A stretch of 9,650 bases of DNA, taken from assembly GCA_030615705.1 (NCBI GenBank), contig JAUWYT010000036.1, positions 1 to 9,650 on the forward strand. The letters run 5' to 3'. The position numbers and the translations under genes are program-made. Below the pieces are notes generated by a model. It had not been told where the DNA came from and ran no database searches. It was given only the letters and a program-made list of their open reading frames with translations. Positions 4,553 through 8,871 of this stretch are shown here, in pieces (positions within the stretch are counted from its first letter, which is position 1; each line of letters opens with the position of its first letter). The DNA is from Chloroflexota bacterium. GTDB taxonomy: Bacteria; Chloroflexota; Anaerolineae; VGOG01.

Positions 4553-4581
4553 TTGACATTCTGCCCCGAATATGGTATACT
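4553..4581 (+). promoter_or_regulatory. Strong sigma70-type promoter for the T-box leader and Liv-type importer operon
   Basis: TTGACA at 4553-4558 and TATACT at 4576-4581 have the ideal 17-bp spacing, and TG precedes the -10 by one base (extended -10). Transcription should start near 4588, a few bases before T-box stem I. It is divergent from the exporter promoter, and the two -35 boxes are about 55 bp apart. Confidence 0.85.
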
Positions 4582-4828
4582 CTACGACAAATCAAACATT
4601 GCCAAAGACTGGGAACAGGACTAGTAAGCCTTCAGGCGAGGCCCAGAGAGTCGGGGTAAGGTGGAAGCCCGACGCCAGCGCGAAGGCCGAATGGACCTGG
4701 GAGTTGCAGGCCGAACGGGGTAGTCCCCAAGTAAGCCGAGCCGGAGTCGCCACCGTTATCAGGGCTGAGGGTATTGGACGGCATAGCGGCTGTCCCGTAC
4801 CTGCAACGAGTGAGGCTGGCTCACGACT

Positions 4829-4852
4829 ATCCGCTGTCATGGCGGATTTTTT
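4829..4852 (+). other. Terminator-like hairpin inside the T-box leader
   Basis: ATCCGC (4829-4834) and GCGGAT (4842-4847) form a 6-bp stem with a 7-nt loop, leading directly into six T residues (4847-4852). It sits where stem III and the following linker of a T-box are expected, upstream of the antiterminator. The same CCGCTGT strand (4831-4837) can instead pair with ATAGCGG at 4783-4789. It may simply be stem III, or a weak early termination point. Confidence 0.45.
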
Positions 4853-4908
4853 CGTTTCAGGGAGTCAGCCTAAGAAGGGTGGCACCACGGGTGCTTCTGG
4901 CTACGGAG

Positions 4909-4942
4909 CCCTCGTCCCTTACCGGGACGGGGGTTTTTGTTT
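4909..4942 (+). terminator. T-box intrinsic terminator
   Basis: CCCTCGTCCC (4909-4918), a TTACC loop and GGGACGGGGG (4924-4933) make a 10-bp stem with one G-T pair, followed by TTTTTGTTT. It stands just after the T-box sequence, whose stabilised antiterminator would normally compete with the 5' arm. This is the regulated stop for the importer operon. Confidence 0.92.
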
Positions 4943-5042
4943 GGGGGAAGGTCGGGAGGGGGATCATCAGGTCATCCTACTAGCTTCTAGCGTAGTGGCG
5001 CGGATGGTCGGCTCACTCCCTCCGCCAGTCCCGAAGGGTGAC

Positions 5043-5069
5043 AAGGAGGTGATGGACTATGTAGCGTGA
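5043..5069 (+). other. Perfect Shine-Dalgarno sequence with only minimal ORFs behind it
   Basis: AAGGAGGTGAT (5043-5053) matches the full anti-Shine-Dalgarno complement, yet no gene follows. An ATG at 5059-5061 has ideal spacing but is followed at once by TAG (5062-5064). An overlapping ATG at 5052 encodes just MDYVA before TGA at 5067-5069. The next real gene, the binding protein, starts at 5123 with its own AGGAG. The rest of the 4943-5122 interval shows no other feature I can support. Confidence 0.4.
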
Positions 5070-5122
5070 TGCTCATCGGGTAAATCTTATGAACACAAAA
5101 ACGAAAGGAGAAAAAGAAGAGA

Positions 5123-6358
5123 ATGAGGAAGAGTATCTGGACTTTCGTCGTTGTCTTACTGTTGATTGCTTTGGCGACAAGTGCGTGCGCGCCGGCTCCC
5201 ACTCCCACCCCCACGCCCAAACCCAAGCCGACGCCTACTCTCTCACCCCCCACTGCTACTCCCAAGCCCGCGTTCGAAGGGCCCATCAAGGTGGGGATAA
5301 TGACGGTGATGACCGGTCCGGCCGCCTCAGTGGGCATGGAGCAGCGCAACTGGGCCAAGCTGGCTGTAGACCAGTTCAACGAAGCCAGCGGCATCCCCGG
5401 GATCGAAGTCGAGATGGTAGAGGGCGACACCGAGTTCGACCCGGCCAAGGCGATGTTGGTAGCGGAGCGGATGGCTGCCGATTCCACCATCTATGGCATC
5501 GCCGGTCCGGAGAGTAGCCAGAACTGCGCTGCCACTGCTGAGATATTCGAAAAGGCCAGCTTGGCTTACATCAGCCCCTCGTGCACCGGGTCTGATCTTT
5601 CGGAGCAAGGCTACAAGACTTTCTTCCGCGTGGTGCCCAGGGACGACGTGCAGGCTCCCGCTGATGCCATCTTCATGGTCGAGGACCTGGGAGCCAAGTC
5701 GGTGTACATCATTGACGACCAGTCGGTGTACAGCGTGGGGCTGGCGGAGGAAGCTGAGAAGAAGCTGAAGGAGCTAGGTGTCACCAGGATCAAACGCGAG
5801 TCCATCAGCCAGAAGGACAGCGATTTCTCGGCCCTGTTGACGCTGGTGAAAGCAGAATCGCCGGATGTGGTGTTCATCCCCATCCAGTTGGCGGCACAAG
5901 GGGCACAGATTGCCAAGCAGATGCAGGAACTGGGAGTGAAGGCCCATCTGGTGGGCAGCGATGGGCAGTTCTCGCCGTCCGACTTCATCGCCGGGGCAGA
6001 GGGAGCCACGGAAGGGGCTTACGTTTCCCAGTTCGCGCCCGATGTGCACTACATCCCCGAGGCCGAGTCAGCATGGAAGGCGTATGAGGCCCAGTACGGG
6101 GAATTTGGAGCCTACGGCCCGCCAACATTCGAGTCCATGGCCATCTTACTGGACGCTATCAAACGGGCTTTTGATGAAGATGGCAAGATCACCCGAGAGA
6201 ATGTGCTGCGCGAGGTGAAGGCCACCAGGGATCGCCTCGGCATCCTGGGCTTCAAGGTCACCTTCAACGAAAAGGGTGACGCCACCGGAGCTGCCTTCTA
6301 CATCTTTAAAGTAGTCGGGGATCACTTTGAGCTGGTCAAGAAGGTGGAGATGGAATGA
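5123..6358 (+). CDS. livK: Liv-type (HAAT) ABC importer substrate-binding lipoprotein, predicted Trp/aromatic cargo
   Basis: This 411-residue protein is of periplasmic-binding-protein type I, the LivJ/LivK amino-acid receptor family. An N-terminal membrane-spanning signal (residues 5-20) ends in ATSAC, with C22 the likely lipidated cysteine. The -3 position is Thr rather than the usual Leu, so the lipobox is slightly atypical. Residues 23-50 form a Pro/Thr/Lys linker built on TPTPTPKPKP. The binding domain begins near 54 with PIKVGIMTVMTGPAASVG. It has the first-lobe GPESSQNCAATAEIF segment (128-142) and SPSCTGSDL (151-159), where LivJ-type proteins contact the ligand backbone. The ATG follows AGGAG at 5106-5110 with a long 12-nt spacing. 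It is the first gene after the T-box terminator. The family usually binds branched-chain or other hydrophobic amino acids. The Trp specifier upstream argues for an aromatic ligand here, which is inference. Confidence 0.88.
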   Translation: MRKSIWTFVVVLLLIALATSACAPAPTPTPTPKPKPTPTLSPPTATPKPAFEGPIKVGIMTVMTGPAASVGMEQRNWAKLAVDQFNEASGIPGIEVEMVEGDTEFDPAKAMLVAERMAADSTIYGIAGPESSQNCAATAEIFEKASLAYISPSCTGSDLSEQGYKTFFRVVPRDDVQAPADAIFMVEDLGAKSVYIIDDQSVYSVGLAEEAEKKLKELGVTRIKRESISQKDSDFSALLTLVKAESPDVVFIPIQLAAQGAQIAKQMQELGVKAHLVGSDGQFSPSDFIAGAEGATEGAYVSQFAPDVHYIPEAESAWKAYEAQYGEFGAYGPPTFESMAILLDAIKRAFDEDGKITRENVLREVKATRDRLGILGFKVTFNEKGDATGAAFYIFKVVGDHFELVKKVEME

Positions 6359-6371
6359 GAGCTTTGGTCCT

Positions 6372-6400
6372 GTCAGGCGGGGGCAAGGCCCCCGCCTGAC
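6372..6400 (+). terminator. Strong hairpin without T-run between the binding-protein and permease genes
   Basis: GTCAGGCGGGGGC (6372-6384) and GCCCCCGCCTGAC (6388-6400) are perfect 13-bp complements with a 3-nt AAG loop. Only AAACG follows, so it is not a classic intrinsic terminator. Such hairpins after binding-protein genes commonly protect the upstream mRNA from 3' decay, or stop a fraction of transcripts. That gives more binding protein than permease. The function here is inferred. Confidence 0.65.
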
Positions 6401-6411
6401 AAACGTCAACG

Positions 6412-7356
6412 ATGGGAAAATGGCCTATGGACGCGCTCCTCAGGCAATTGCCACAACAATTGGTTAACGGGCTCACTCTGGGCAGTGTCTACGCTCTCAT
6501 TGCCCTGGGCTATTCCATGGTCTACGGCATCCTGCAACTGCTGAACTTTGCCCACGGTGAGGTCTACATGATCGGCGCCTTCATCGGTTGGGGAGTTTTC
6601 GCCCTTTTGGTACCTGGGAACACCCTGCTGCTTCCTGCTTCTGTCATCATCCTTCTCATGCTGATGGCAGCCATGCTGGGTTGTGGGTTTCTGGGCGTCG
6701 TCATAGAATGGTTTGCCTATCGGCCCTTGCGTGAGGCCCCCCGCATCGCTCCGCTCATCAGCGCCCTGGGCGTGTCCTTTTTCTTGCAGAACGCCGTGCT
6801 GCTCACCATGAGCGCCCGCTACAGGGCATACCGCACCGGGTTGCTCATCCCCCGCACCTGGGGGATATCCATCTTCGGAGCCACCATCTCCTTCACCCGC
6901 ATCCTGGTCATCGTTGTGGCTGTGCTCCTCATGCTGATCTTGCACTACCTGGTGCAGAAGACCCGGCTGGGTAAAGCCATGCGAGCCACAGCTCAGGACC
7001 GAGAGGCGGCAGCCATGATGGGCATTGACGTGGACCGCGTCATCGTGGTCACGTTCTTTATCGGCTCGGCTCTGGGCGGGGCGGCTGGGGTGTTAGTGGG
7101 GCTGTTGTTCACCCAGATTTATCATTTCATGGGCTTCACTGCCGGTCTCAAAGGTTTCACCGCCGCAGTCTGTGGCGGCATCGGCAATATCCCCGGGGCC
7201 ATGCTGGGCGGGTTTCTTCTGGGCATCATCGAGAGCATCGGTGTCGGCTTCATCTCACCCAGGTATAAAGATCTCATCGTTTTCTGTGTTTTGATCCTAA
7301 TCCTTCTTTTGCGGCCCAGAGGTCTGTTGGGGGTTAAGGTGCAAGAGAAGGTGTGA
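6412..7356 (+). CDS. livH: Liv-type ABC importer permease, LivH family
   Basis: This 314-residue inner-membrane permease is close to the usual 290-310 for LivH. The N-terminus carries the family hallmark NGLTLGSVYALIALGYSMV (19-37), then LNFAHGEVYMIGAF (44-57). The cytoplasmic coupling loop that docks on the ATPase is TRLGKAMRATAQDREAAAMM (184-203). Further conserved segments are GLKGFTAAVCGGIGNIPGAM (245-264) and RPRGLLG (301-307). About eight hydrophobic helices are apparent. The start is uncertain. The ATG at 6412 lacks a clear ribosome-binding site, and an in-frame ATG at 6427 (residue 6) is equally possible. Both lie soon after the intergenic hairpin. It pairs with the LivM-like permease to form the channel. 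Confidence 0.93.
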   Translation: MGKWPMDALLRQLPQQLVNGLTLGSVYALIALGYSMVYGILQLLNFAHGEVYMIGAFIGWGVFALLVPGNTLLLPASVIILLMLMAAMLGCGFLGVVIEWFAYRPLREAPRIAPLISALGVSFFLQNAVLLTMSARYRAYRTGLLIPRTWGISIFGATISFTRILVIVVAVLLMLILHYLVQKTRLGKAMRATAQDREAAAMMGIDVDRVIVVTFFIGSALGGAAGVLVGLLFTQIYHFMGFTAGLKGFTAAVCGGIGNIPGAMLGGFLLGIIESIGVGFISPRYKDLIVFCVLILILLLRPRGLLGVKVQEKV

Positions 7357-7380: not shown

Positions 7381-8871
7381 ATGTCAACCAAGCCAGACTG
7401 GGAACAATTCGGCAAAGATGAATGGGCGGCGCGGGAAGAGGCGCGCCTGAGGGAGGCAGAGGCCGCGGGCAGGCTGTCCTTCCGGCTACGACGAGCCTGG
7501 AAGGATATGGACTCTCGCCTGAAGATGCTGCTGGCGCTGGCTGTAGCCAGCACCCTGCCCCTGTTCGTGCACAATCCCTATCACATGCGCGTGGCAGGCA
7601 TCGTGGGCCTGTACATCATGCTATCCCTGGGACTGAACGTGGTGGCCGGGTTTGCCGGGCTTCTGGACCTGGGTTATGTGGCCTTCTACAGCCTGGGAGC
7701 CTATGCCTACGCGCTCCTGGCCTCACCTCAGTTCCACCAGCATTGGCCTTTCTGGCTGATCTTGCCCCTGGTCATCTTCGTCACCGCTCTCTTCGGTTTC
7801 TTATTGGGTTCTCCGTCCATGCGTCTACGGGGCGACTACCTGGCTGTCGTCACCCTGGGCTTTGGGCAAATCGCCGGTTTGCTCCTCCTCAACCTGGATA
7901 GAGTCCGCCTACCCTTCCTGCACCTGGAGAAGCCGTTGAACATCACCGGCGGGCCGAACGGCATCATCAACGTTGACGACATCCGCATCCTTGGCTACAC
8001 CGTGGAGACGGCCACCGGGTATTATTATCTGATCCTGCTCTTCGTCGCCCTGGTCTTTCTGGTTGTCTTTCATCTCGACTGCTCGCGCATCGGGCGGGCC
8101 TGGCGGGCCATTCGAGAGGACGAACTGGCGGCCCAGACCATGGGCGTGGATACCCGTCGGCTGAAGTTGCTGGCCTTCTCGGTAGGAGCATCTATCGCCG
8201 GGACTGCTGGCGTGCTCTTCGCCGCCTGGCAGGGAGCGGTGTTTCCCTCTAACTTCGACGTGACTATCCTCATTATCCTGTACTCGATGGTCGTGCTGGG
8301 CGGGGTGGGCAGCATCTGGGGGGCGGTCAGCGGGGCACTGATCCTGTCTATCCTGCCCGAATTGCTGCGCAGCCCCGAGGTGGCCCGGCTCATGTTCTAC
8401 GGTGCCCTCATCCCGGCCGTAATTGGCCTCTCACGGCGAGCGAAAATGCGGGGTCTGGCCCTGCTGGGGGGTGTGGGTGTTCTGGGGATGGCTCTCAAGG
8501 TCACGCTTACCGCCCTGCGACCGGAATGGTTCCTGCAGCCTGAGCTGAAACTCAGCGTGGCCCGATCCACATTCGCGCCATTGATGAGGGCTCTCAACTG
8601 GTGGATGTTGTTCCCCCGTGACAGCCGAGGCATAGGCAATGCGGCTTTCGTGCTGGCGCTGTTCCTGCTGCTGGGGGTTCTTCGTCTCAAGGGTACGGGT
8701 CAATACGTATTGCTGGTGCCCGGGCTTTATACTCTAGCCTTCGTTTGGGAGACACGCCTGGTCGAGGAACCCAGTGTCACCCGCATGTTGATCTTCGGAG
8801 TCCTCCTGGTGCTTATGATGAACTACCGTCCTCAGGGATTGTTTGGACAGAGATGGGTACAGAGGCTTTGA
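7381..8871 (+). CDS. livM: Liv-type ABC importer permease, LivM family, with unusual N- and C-terminal extra segments
   Basis: This 496-residue permease is longer than most LivM proteins (roughly 300-430). A charged cytoplasmic N-terminus (1-45, rich in Glu and Arg) precedes the first helix. Conserved core segments are LGLNVVAGFAGLLDLGYVAF (83-102), LRGDYLAVVTLGFGQI (149-164), NITGGPNGI (187-195), the ATPase-coupling loop GRAWRAIREDELAAQTMGVD (238-257) and VVLGGVGSIWGAVSGALIL (304-322). The C-terminal family mark RPQGLFG appears only at 483-489. Between it and LPELLR (325-330) lies an extra stretch of about 130 residues with additional hydrophobic segments near 340-350, 358-375, 421-434 and 441-456. 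It begins 24 nt after livH ends, with only a weak purine-rich stretch as ribosome-binding site. The frame is intact, so the extra part looks genuine rather than a fusion artefact. Confidence 0.92.
   Translation: MSTKPDWEQFGKDEWAAREEARLREAEAAGRLSFRLRRAWKDMDSRLKMLLALAVASTLPLFVHNPYHMRVAGIVGLYIMLSLGLNVVAGFAGLLDLGYVAFYSLGAYAYALLASPQFHQHWPFWLILPLVIFVTALFGFLLGSPSMRLRGDYLAVVTLGFGQIAGLLLLNLDRVRLPFLHLEKPLNITGGPNGIINVDDIRILGYTVETATGYYYLILLFVALVFLVVFHLDCSRIGRAWRAIREDELAAQTMGVDTRRLKLLAFSVGASIAGTAGVLFAAWQGAVFPSNFDVTILIILYSMVVLGGVGSIWGAVSGALILSILPELLRSPEVARLMFYGALIPAVIGLSRRAKMRGLALLGGVGVLGMALKVTLTALRPEWFLQPELKLSVARSTFAPLMRALNWWMLFPRDSRGIGNAAFVLALFLLLGVLRLKGTGQYVLLVPGLYTLAFVWETRLVEEPSVTRMLIFGVLLVLMMNYRPQGLFGQRWVQRL

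Follow-up and report, generated by a model that had tools for sequence, protein, structure and literature searches.

A tryptophan-type T-box leader before a Liv/HAAT importer operon in a Chloroflexota genome, with a probable origin of the arrangement inside a trpB2 leader

An importer under the control of a Trp T-box is already known. In Streptococcus suis, TrpXYZ is a tryptophan ABC importer that is governed by a Trp T-box and induced at tryptophan limitation (PMC9382623, in the excerpts available). Wels 2008 predicted what transporters carry from the specificity of their T-boxes, with Trp T-boxes on ABC and NSS transporters in Firmicutes, and reported Dehalococcoides T-boxes on trpE and on a trpB-like gene (PMC2494555, excerpts); Sun 2013 placed Chloroflexi among the groups with T-boxes (PMC3766115, excerpts). 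Here we analyse a 9,650-nt stretch of DNA from a Chloroflexota bacterium (the window), in which a T-box leader with a tryptophan specifier precedes the genes of a Liv/HAAT-type importer. With this cargo, the locus is a well-supported variant of the known arrangement. No report of a Trp T-box before a Liv/HAAT operon was found in the literature covered, which comprised titles, abstract openings and passages, with subscription journals thinly represented. Of more interest than the T-box alone are the apparent operon that carries trpS and trpB2 and its origin inside a T-box.

The window is the entire contig C177 of assembly G000, a metagenome-assembled genome (MAG) of 1.9 Mb in 322 contigs that is 79.6% complete. 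It was compared with G001 and G002, two relatives of the same family, and with G049 and G109, which belong to two other families.

The T-box leader and the amino acid it would read

The leader lies on the plus strand at 4602-4922 and is a class I, transcriptional T-box. It matches RF00230 over model positions 1-219 of 219, that is over the whole covariance model, with 86.6 bits (E 2.3e-19). Upstream, a promoter-like site (TTGACA-17-TATACT, 4553-4581, plus strand) agrees with the consensus at 11 of 12 letters, has a TG before the second hexamer and is kept in G001, G002 and G049 in the leader alignment; it would start transcription near 4589, the left edge drawn by an earlier, sequence-only reading of this DNA. 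Folded without constraints, 4871-4922 has its energy minimum (-17.2 kcal/mol) in an antiterminator with a 7-nt TGGCACC bulge. An intrinsic terminator with a T run (4906-4945, plus strand, -23.5 kcal/mol) rivals this antiterminator (4875-4920), so that the UGGN bulge sits in a structure that is mutually exclusive with termination. The T-box linker contains another terminator-like hairpin, also with a T run, at 4829-4847 (plus strand), which is kept in G001 and G002.

The specifier is TGG (Trp) at 4692-4694 (plus strand), within Stem I and in the context GAA-TGG-ACCTGGGAG. The bulge TGGC at 4880-4883 (plus strand) stands within the T-box sequence AAGGGTGGCACCACGGG, and a pairing of its C4883 with G73 of tRNA-Trp is predicted. 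To control for register, we used five other T-boxes of the same genome, which have the following codon and bulge letters: serS TCG/C, valS GTC/T, thrS ACC/A, leuS CTC/T and pheS TTC/T. The first four genes score above NCBIfam cut-offs, and pheS was named by eye. In all five, codon and bulge suit the downstream gene. The tRNA discriminators of the genome also match the control bulges (Ser G73, Val A73, Thr T73, Leu A73); no tRNA-Phe was found among the typed tRNAs, which cover 34 of the 35 tRNA matches, the remaining one being C118:4247-4329 (83 nt). The leuS leader reads GAA-CTC-GCCTGGGAG and has the same 3′ flank as the window leader, which is why GAA-TGG-ACC is read as TGG. On its minus strand, this leuS leader harbours a complete tRNA-Ala(GGC) gene (G3:U70, A73), at 1552-1625 of L005, between Stem III and the antiterminator of the T-box (L005 1501-1833, G000:C213:7116-7448).

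Leaders at the same locus in G001 and G002 are 92.6% and 89.1% identical to that of the window (for G001, 92.6% without insertion gaps and 67.6% with those gaps counted), carry TGG and TGGC, and stand before a trpB-like gene. Both loci share with the window a block made of a Kbl-like gene, two ABC exporter genes and the T-box. In the G001 T-box (L052), roughly 106-110 nt are inserted into the linker, bounded by inverted GGATCCAA/TTGGATCC ends.

A nucleotide search found leader-related sequences in 137 of 396 genomes of the class, G000 included. From at least about 150 matches we inspected 109 distinct loci, picked by their similarity to the window leader (L139 and L223 count as one locus). The gene downstream is trpB-like at 40, trpE at 32, trpS at 24, livK at 3, a creatininase-family gene at 1 and unassigned at 9; 96 leaders thus precede a trpB-like gene, trpE or trpS. 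These labels come from BLASTP against reference frames named by eye, the best-matching downstream gene being counted, and at a few trpB-like-labelled loci another open reading frame (ORF) stands first. TGG was read at 104 of the 109 loci, a count biased by a pattern that prefers TGG where one fits and by the choice of loci by similarity; the bulge letter is C at 95 and T at 9, and 5 have no detectable core. In the TBDB collection, U occupies this letter in 46% of Trp T-boxes, which is explained by G:U wobble (PMC7778990, excerpts). At five loci (L163, L164, L187, L189 and L220) an ATPase-like ORF with a FFVGENGSGKST motif stands between the Trp T-box and the trpB-like gene.

The tRNA-Trp genes of G001, G002 and G049 have the anticodon CCA and G73, which fits both the specifier TGG and the bulge C. 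They were found by a pattern search without the discriminator in five genomes, which gave no match in G000 or G014. An earlier count of 17 of 298 class genomes was discarded as evidence, since the GCCA 3′ end in that pattern forced G73.

The sequence-only reading had placed a T-box before the importer, and the Rfam model search returned a full-length match there, though below the gathering score. It had also named TGG in a GAA-TGG-A context, now upheld by the leuS register control and by the same-locus leaders on trpB-like genes, and a bulge residue C that requires G, which is C4883 of the TGGC bulge. Its third point, G73 in tRNA-Trp, holds in G001, G002 and G049, and no tRNA-Trp was found in the G000 assembly itself. 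On the basis of same-genome register controls, orthologous trpB-like leaders and class-wide leaders on trp genes, it is almost certain that the leader is under tryptophan control. It would sense uncharged tRNA-Trp, and antitermination would turn the importer genes on at tryptophan shortage; binding of tRNA-Trp, readthrough under such shortage and co-transcription of the following genes are all inferred.

The importer genes and their apparent continuation on a second contig

Downstream of the leader, four genes follow on the plus strand: a livK-like lipoprotein, putatively the substrate-binding protein (5123-6358; PF13458, 165.5 bits), a livH-like permease (6412-7356; PF02653, 167.7 bits; 88% identical to that of G049 over 291 aa), a livM-like permease (7381-8871; PF02653, 149.2 bits; 74% identical to that of G049) and a livG-like ATPase that is truncated by the contig end (8891-9650; PF00005 and PF12399). 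Between livK and livH, a strong inverted repeat without a T run (GTCAGGCGGGGGC..GCCCCCGCCTGAC, 6372-6400, plus strand) fits the intercistronic mRNA hairpin that is expected behind a binding-protein gene.

The sequence-only reading had spoken of a full Liv importer. Four of the five subunits are indeed in the window; the fifth, livF, lies outside it, at the end of another contig of this assembly, C318, and is 89% identical to livF of G109. With it, the Liv/HAAT part list is complete: a Peripla_BP_6 binding protein, two BPD_transp_2 permeases and two ABC ATPases. When C318 is reversed, its first 20 bases match the final 20 of the window at 19 positions, and the livG frame runs on across the junction. 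After livG, C318 carries in this order livF, a 4Fe-4S ferredoxin, an aldehyde:ferredoxin oxidoreductase (AOR; AFOR_N 250.1 bits, AFOR_C 440.6 bits), a TIGR04076 protein, trpS (TIGR00233, 296.9 bits for a cut-off of 176.75) and trpB2 (TIGR01415, 620.6 bits for a cut-off of 518.85). A simple relocation of trpB2 behind trpS was ruled out, as the livF search put both genes at the end of the same apparent operon. The T-box, livKHMGF, ferredoxin, AOR, TIGR04076, trpS and trpB2 apparently form one operon across two contigs, predicted from gene order. It could act as a single switch for tryptophan uptake, charging and last-step synthesis.

In G049, the liv genes are followed by an intervening stretch with a 216-residue frame and then by ferredoxin, AOR and a stretch that matches TIGR04076. 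In G109, the order is liv, ferredoxin, creatininase and Opp. T-box-liv was found in three families, those of the window genome, G049 and G109. The T-box search gave no match at the other Liv genes of G000 (C102, C64 and C257). At another locus of the leader census (L223, G060:C87), a Trp-type T-box precedes a ferredoxin gene, a creatininase-like gene, two amidohydrolase-like genes, an Opp-like importer and a threonine-synthase-like gene, several of them named by eye; this could possibly be another Trp salvage cassette, sharing parts with the liv operon of G109.

LivK orthologs behind a TGG T-box are 77% (G049) and 78% (G109) identical to the window protein, and the T-boxes of both read TGG/TGGC; the next best LivK by score among 60 relatives is 33% identical. 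A scan of a GTDB-based collection with two exact peptides found two liv-operon relatives, the counterparts of G049 and G109; such a scan can miss relatives and may leave out the window's own genome. In a protein database, 7996 candidates sharing most words were scored, and among the best 120 of 188 matches, a clade of 50 clusters at least 67% identical (P0001-P0050) stands apart from a next tier at 55% or less. The source names shown within this clade are all those of a branched-chain amino-acid binding protein. Genomic context was seen for three clade members. P0022 (73% identity) lies on a 4.9 Mb contig and further members on other contigs.

The nearest solved structures of LivK include Leu/Ile/Val-binding proteins, with about 30% identity to characterised LIV proteins. 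When LBP is aligned with LivK, Ser79, Thr102 and Glu226, which we take to be contacts of the alpha-amino acid, correspond to Ser132, Thr155 and Asp280; the bulky Trp18 corresponds to Val70 and Leu77 to Glu130. Glu130 is present in 49 of 50 clade members; among the 69 proteins of the next tier none has it (67 have Ala), nor does any of the 28 further Liv homologs from the class. These positions are compatible with a remodelled pocket that holds one acidic group, and the ligand is not thereby identified.

A probable cassette inside a T-box leader

G001 is collinear with the window up to position 4891, fourteen bases beyond the start of the T-box core. Collinearity resumes on the reversed C318 at 4817, directly after the T run of the G001 terminator, and extends through trpB2 to the contig end. 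As G001 is collinear on both sides, a cassette of about 9.6 kb lies inside what is a single leader in G001. The same collinearity supports the link between C177 and C318.

The leader itself appears to be a mosaic with a candidate recombination seam at 4877-4891 (plus strand): its 5′ side resembles the trpB2 leaders of the sister genomes and its 3′ side the liv leader of G049. We took as informative those sites at which G001 equals G002, G049 equals G109 and the two pairs differ; the row of G060 was misaligned and was left out. Left of the core, the window sides with the trpB2 leaders at 9 of 10 informative sites, and right of it with the liv leaders at 6 of 6 (Fisher p 0.0009, for sites that are few and non-independent, three of the right-hand ones falling in one indel region). 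In the 3′ part of the leader, the window shares 49/57 positions with G049, 32/57 with G001 and 33/57 with G002. Most likely, two Trp T-boxes recombined at their conserved core, as judged from these alignments. A liv cassette bearing the 3′ part of its own Trp T-box would have recombined into the resident leader of trpB2. Such an insertion offers a snapshot of a riboswitch regulon gaining cargo with its specificity kept.

More generally, we tentatively suggest that T-box leaders may act as docking sites for uptake-and-salvage cassettes, core recombination swapping the cargo and keeping the amino acid that is read. In the present case, the cassette, about 9.6 kb long and made up of a Liv-type importer, ferredoxin, AOR, TIGR04076 and trpS, would have settled in a trpB2 leader whose host was a tryptophan auxotroph; the importer might found a new uptake family for tryptophan or indole acids.

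At the left of the window lies the 3′ end of a BioF/Kbl-family gene (2-445), and two ABC exporter genes on the minus strand stand between it and the plus-strand leader. The exporter genes have a leader of their own (4497-4285, minus strand) that looks like an attenuation leader. It comprises a promoter-like site (4497-4470) with 12 of 12 consensus letters, a Shine-Dalgarno sequence and a 34-codon leader ORF from 4443, followed by a strong terminator hairpin with a T run (-29.9 kcal/mol). The end of this ORF resembles ...LLPCRSAPP.RLW in G001, with a weaker likeness in G002.

The substrate of the importer and comparison with known systems

We consider tryptophan to be the probable main substrate of the importer, at roughly 0.7. 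That the importer serves tryptophan supply is supported by three observations: trpS and trpB2 stand at the end of this apparent operon, searches detected neither trpA nor trpC, and the T-box-liv arrangement recurs. Searches that were positive in 14 of 14 control genomes found neither TrpA (TIGR00262) nor TrpC (PF00218) in G000, G001, G002 or G049; they found both in G109 and G060. TrpB2 finishes tryptophan from indole, so that without TrpA and TrpC indole would have to come from elsewhere. This gene content fits a cell that would import tryptophan, or import indole and finish it with TrpB2. It suggests that family members without detected trpA and trpC rely on the import of tryptophan or indole. 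By homology, Liv/HAAT importers routinely receive branched-chain names, and here the regulatory signal together with trpS and trpB2 points one clade, 50 clusters among the matches listed, to tryptophan.

Several observations pull the other way. Concerning the leader, its score lies under the Rfam gathering score (86.6 against 93 bits), for which reason a default Rfam scan of the window lists nothing; as the leuS and pheS T-boxes of the same genome score lower still (69.9 and 62.9 bits), membership is maintained. No tRNA-Trp was found in the G000 assembly, among its 35 tRNA matches or by pattern search, in a genome that is 79.6% complete. The same incompleteness makes the absence of trpA and trpC from G000 weak evidence. 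One of the 20 overlapping bases of C177 and C318 is mismatched and no read spans the junction, and in the 3′ part of the leader only G049 is clearly closer to the window (G109, 44/74 with gaps counted). G109 has trpA, trpC and a T-boxed trpE, yet keeps T-box-liv; auxotrophy is therefore neither required for this arrangement nor the whole reason for it. In the binding protein, LBP Tyr202, for which we assume a role too, aligns with Gln255. A T-box reports what the cell lacks and not the ligand of an importer. Wels 2008 anticipates that branched-chain symporters governed by a single-amino-acid T-box are multispecific (PMC2494555, excerpts). Finally, if the importer brings in tryptophan itself, it is not easy to see why an AOR should be controlled by a starvation switch.

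In another reading, the importer would carry a precursor of indolic or aromatic nature, such as indole-3-acetate or some other aryl acid, that AOR and ferredoxin convert, TrpB2 taking part in making tryptophan. Liv-type binding proteins for aromatic acids exist. Ferredoxin and AOR follow liv in both G000 and G049, ferredoxin also follows liv in G109, and TrpB2 without TrpA and TrpC would need outside indole. However, G109 has a creatininase-family gene behind ferredoxin, at the place of AOR in G000, and Ser132, Thr155 and Asp280 match the presumed alpha-amino-acid contacts of LBP, though these are common in the wider family. We regard an imported precursor as rather unlikely.

An ordinary branched-chain or broad hydrophobic amino-acid importer under tryptophan control, with tryptophan as one of several substrates, has on its side homology, the source names of P0001-P0050, the Leu/Ile/Val-binding structures nearby and a precedent in Wels 2008 of T-box control over multispecific transporters (PMC2494555, excerpts). 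It is nonetheless improbable. The identity to characterised LIV proteins is about 30%, no LIV equivalog or subfamily cut-off of NCBIfam is reached (LivK 156/477, LivH 253.6/379, LivM 243.3/366 and LivG 277.9/362 bits), the clade-specific Glu130 occupies the position of LBP Leu77, and trpS and trpB2 are within the same apparent operon.

An assembly or binning chimera, by which the mosaic leader or the link between C177 and C318 would be artificial, could be suspected from the mismatch in the overlap and from a MAG fragmented into 322 contigs. It is very improbable, since the T-box-liv junction is internal to a single contig and is matched by counterparts in two further genomes, and the link agrees with the livG frame, with the livG-livF order of G109 and G049 and with the collinearity of G001 on both sides. 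Reading the specifier one or two bases off, as GGA (Gly), ATG (Met) or GAC (Asp), is hardly credible: serS, valS, thrS and pheS do have one extra base between purine-A-A and the codon compared with leuS, and the tRNA-Asp of G000 has a G73 that would pair with the bulge C, but the Gly and Met tRNAs have T73 and A73, leuS with its identical 3′ flank uses the window register, and same-locus and related leaders precede trp genes, so that these registers were rejected on the leuS control, own-genome discriminators and same-family leaders.

Among the closest described systems is TrpXYZ of S. suis. The binding protein of the window belongs to PF13458, with otherwise only PF01094 and PF13433 listed, unlike TrpX-type binding proteins, which we take to be PF04392. 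Both systems pair an ABC importer and its binding protein with a Trp T-box in the leader, here a Trp T-box by sequence (PMC9382623, excerpts). They differ in that TrpXYZ has one permease and one ATPase and the present importer two of each, which agrees with the caveat of the sequence-only reading that T-boxes on Trp transporters in Firmicutes go mainly with other transporter families. They also differ in that no trpS or trpB2 is part of the operon as described in the excerpts of that paper, whereas both apparently are here. With E. coli LivJ/LivK-LivHMGF, the locus shares the gene order K-H-M-G-F (C318 counted), the Pfam domains and the kinship to Leu- and Leu/Ile/Val-binding proteins; it departs from it by the unmet LIV cut-offs, the clade-specific pocket positions and the control by a Trp T-box. 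The Chloroflexi Trp T-boxes on trpE and trpB-like genes are alike in specificity and phylum (PMC2494555, excerpts), and in the sister genomes the leader still governs a trpB-like gene; in the window, a Liv-type cassette stands between the T-box and trpB2.

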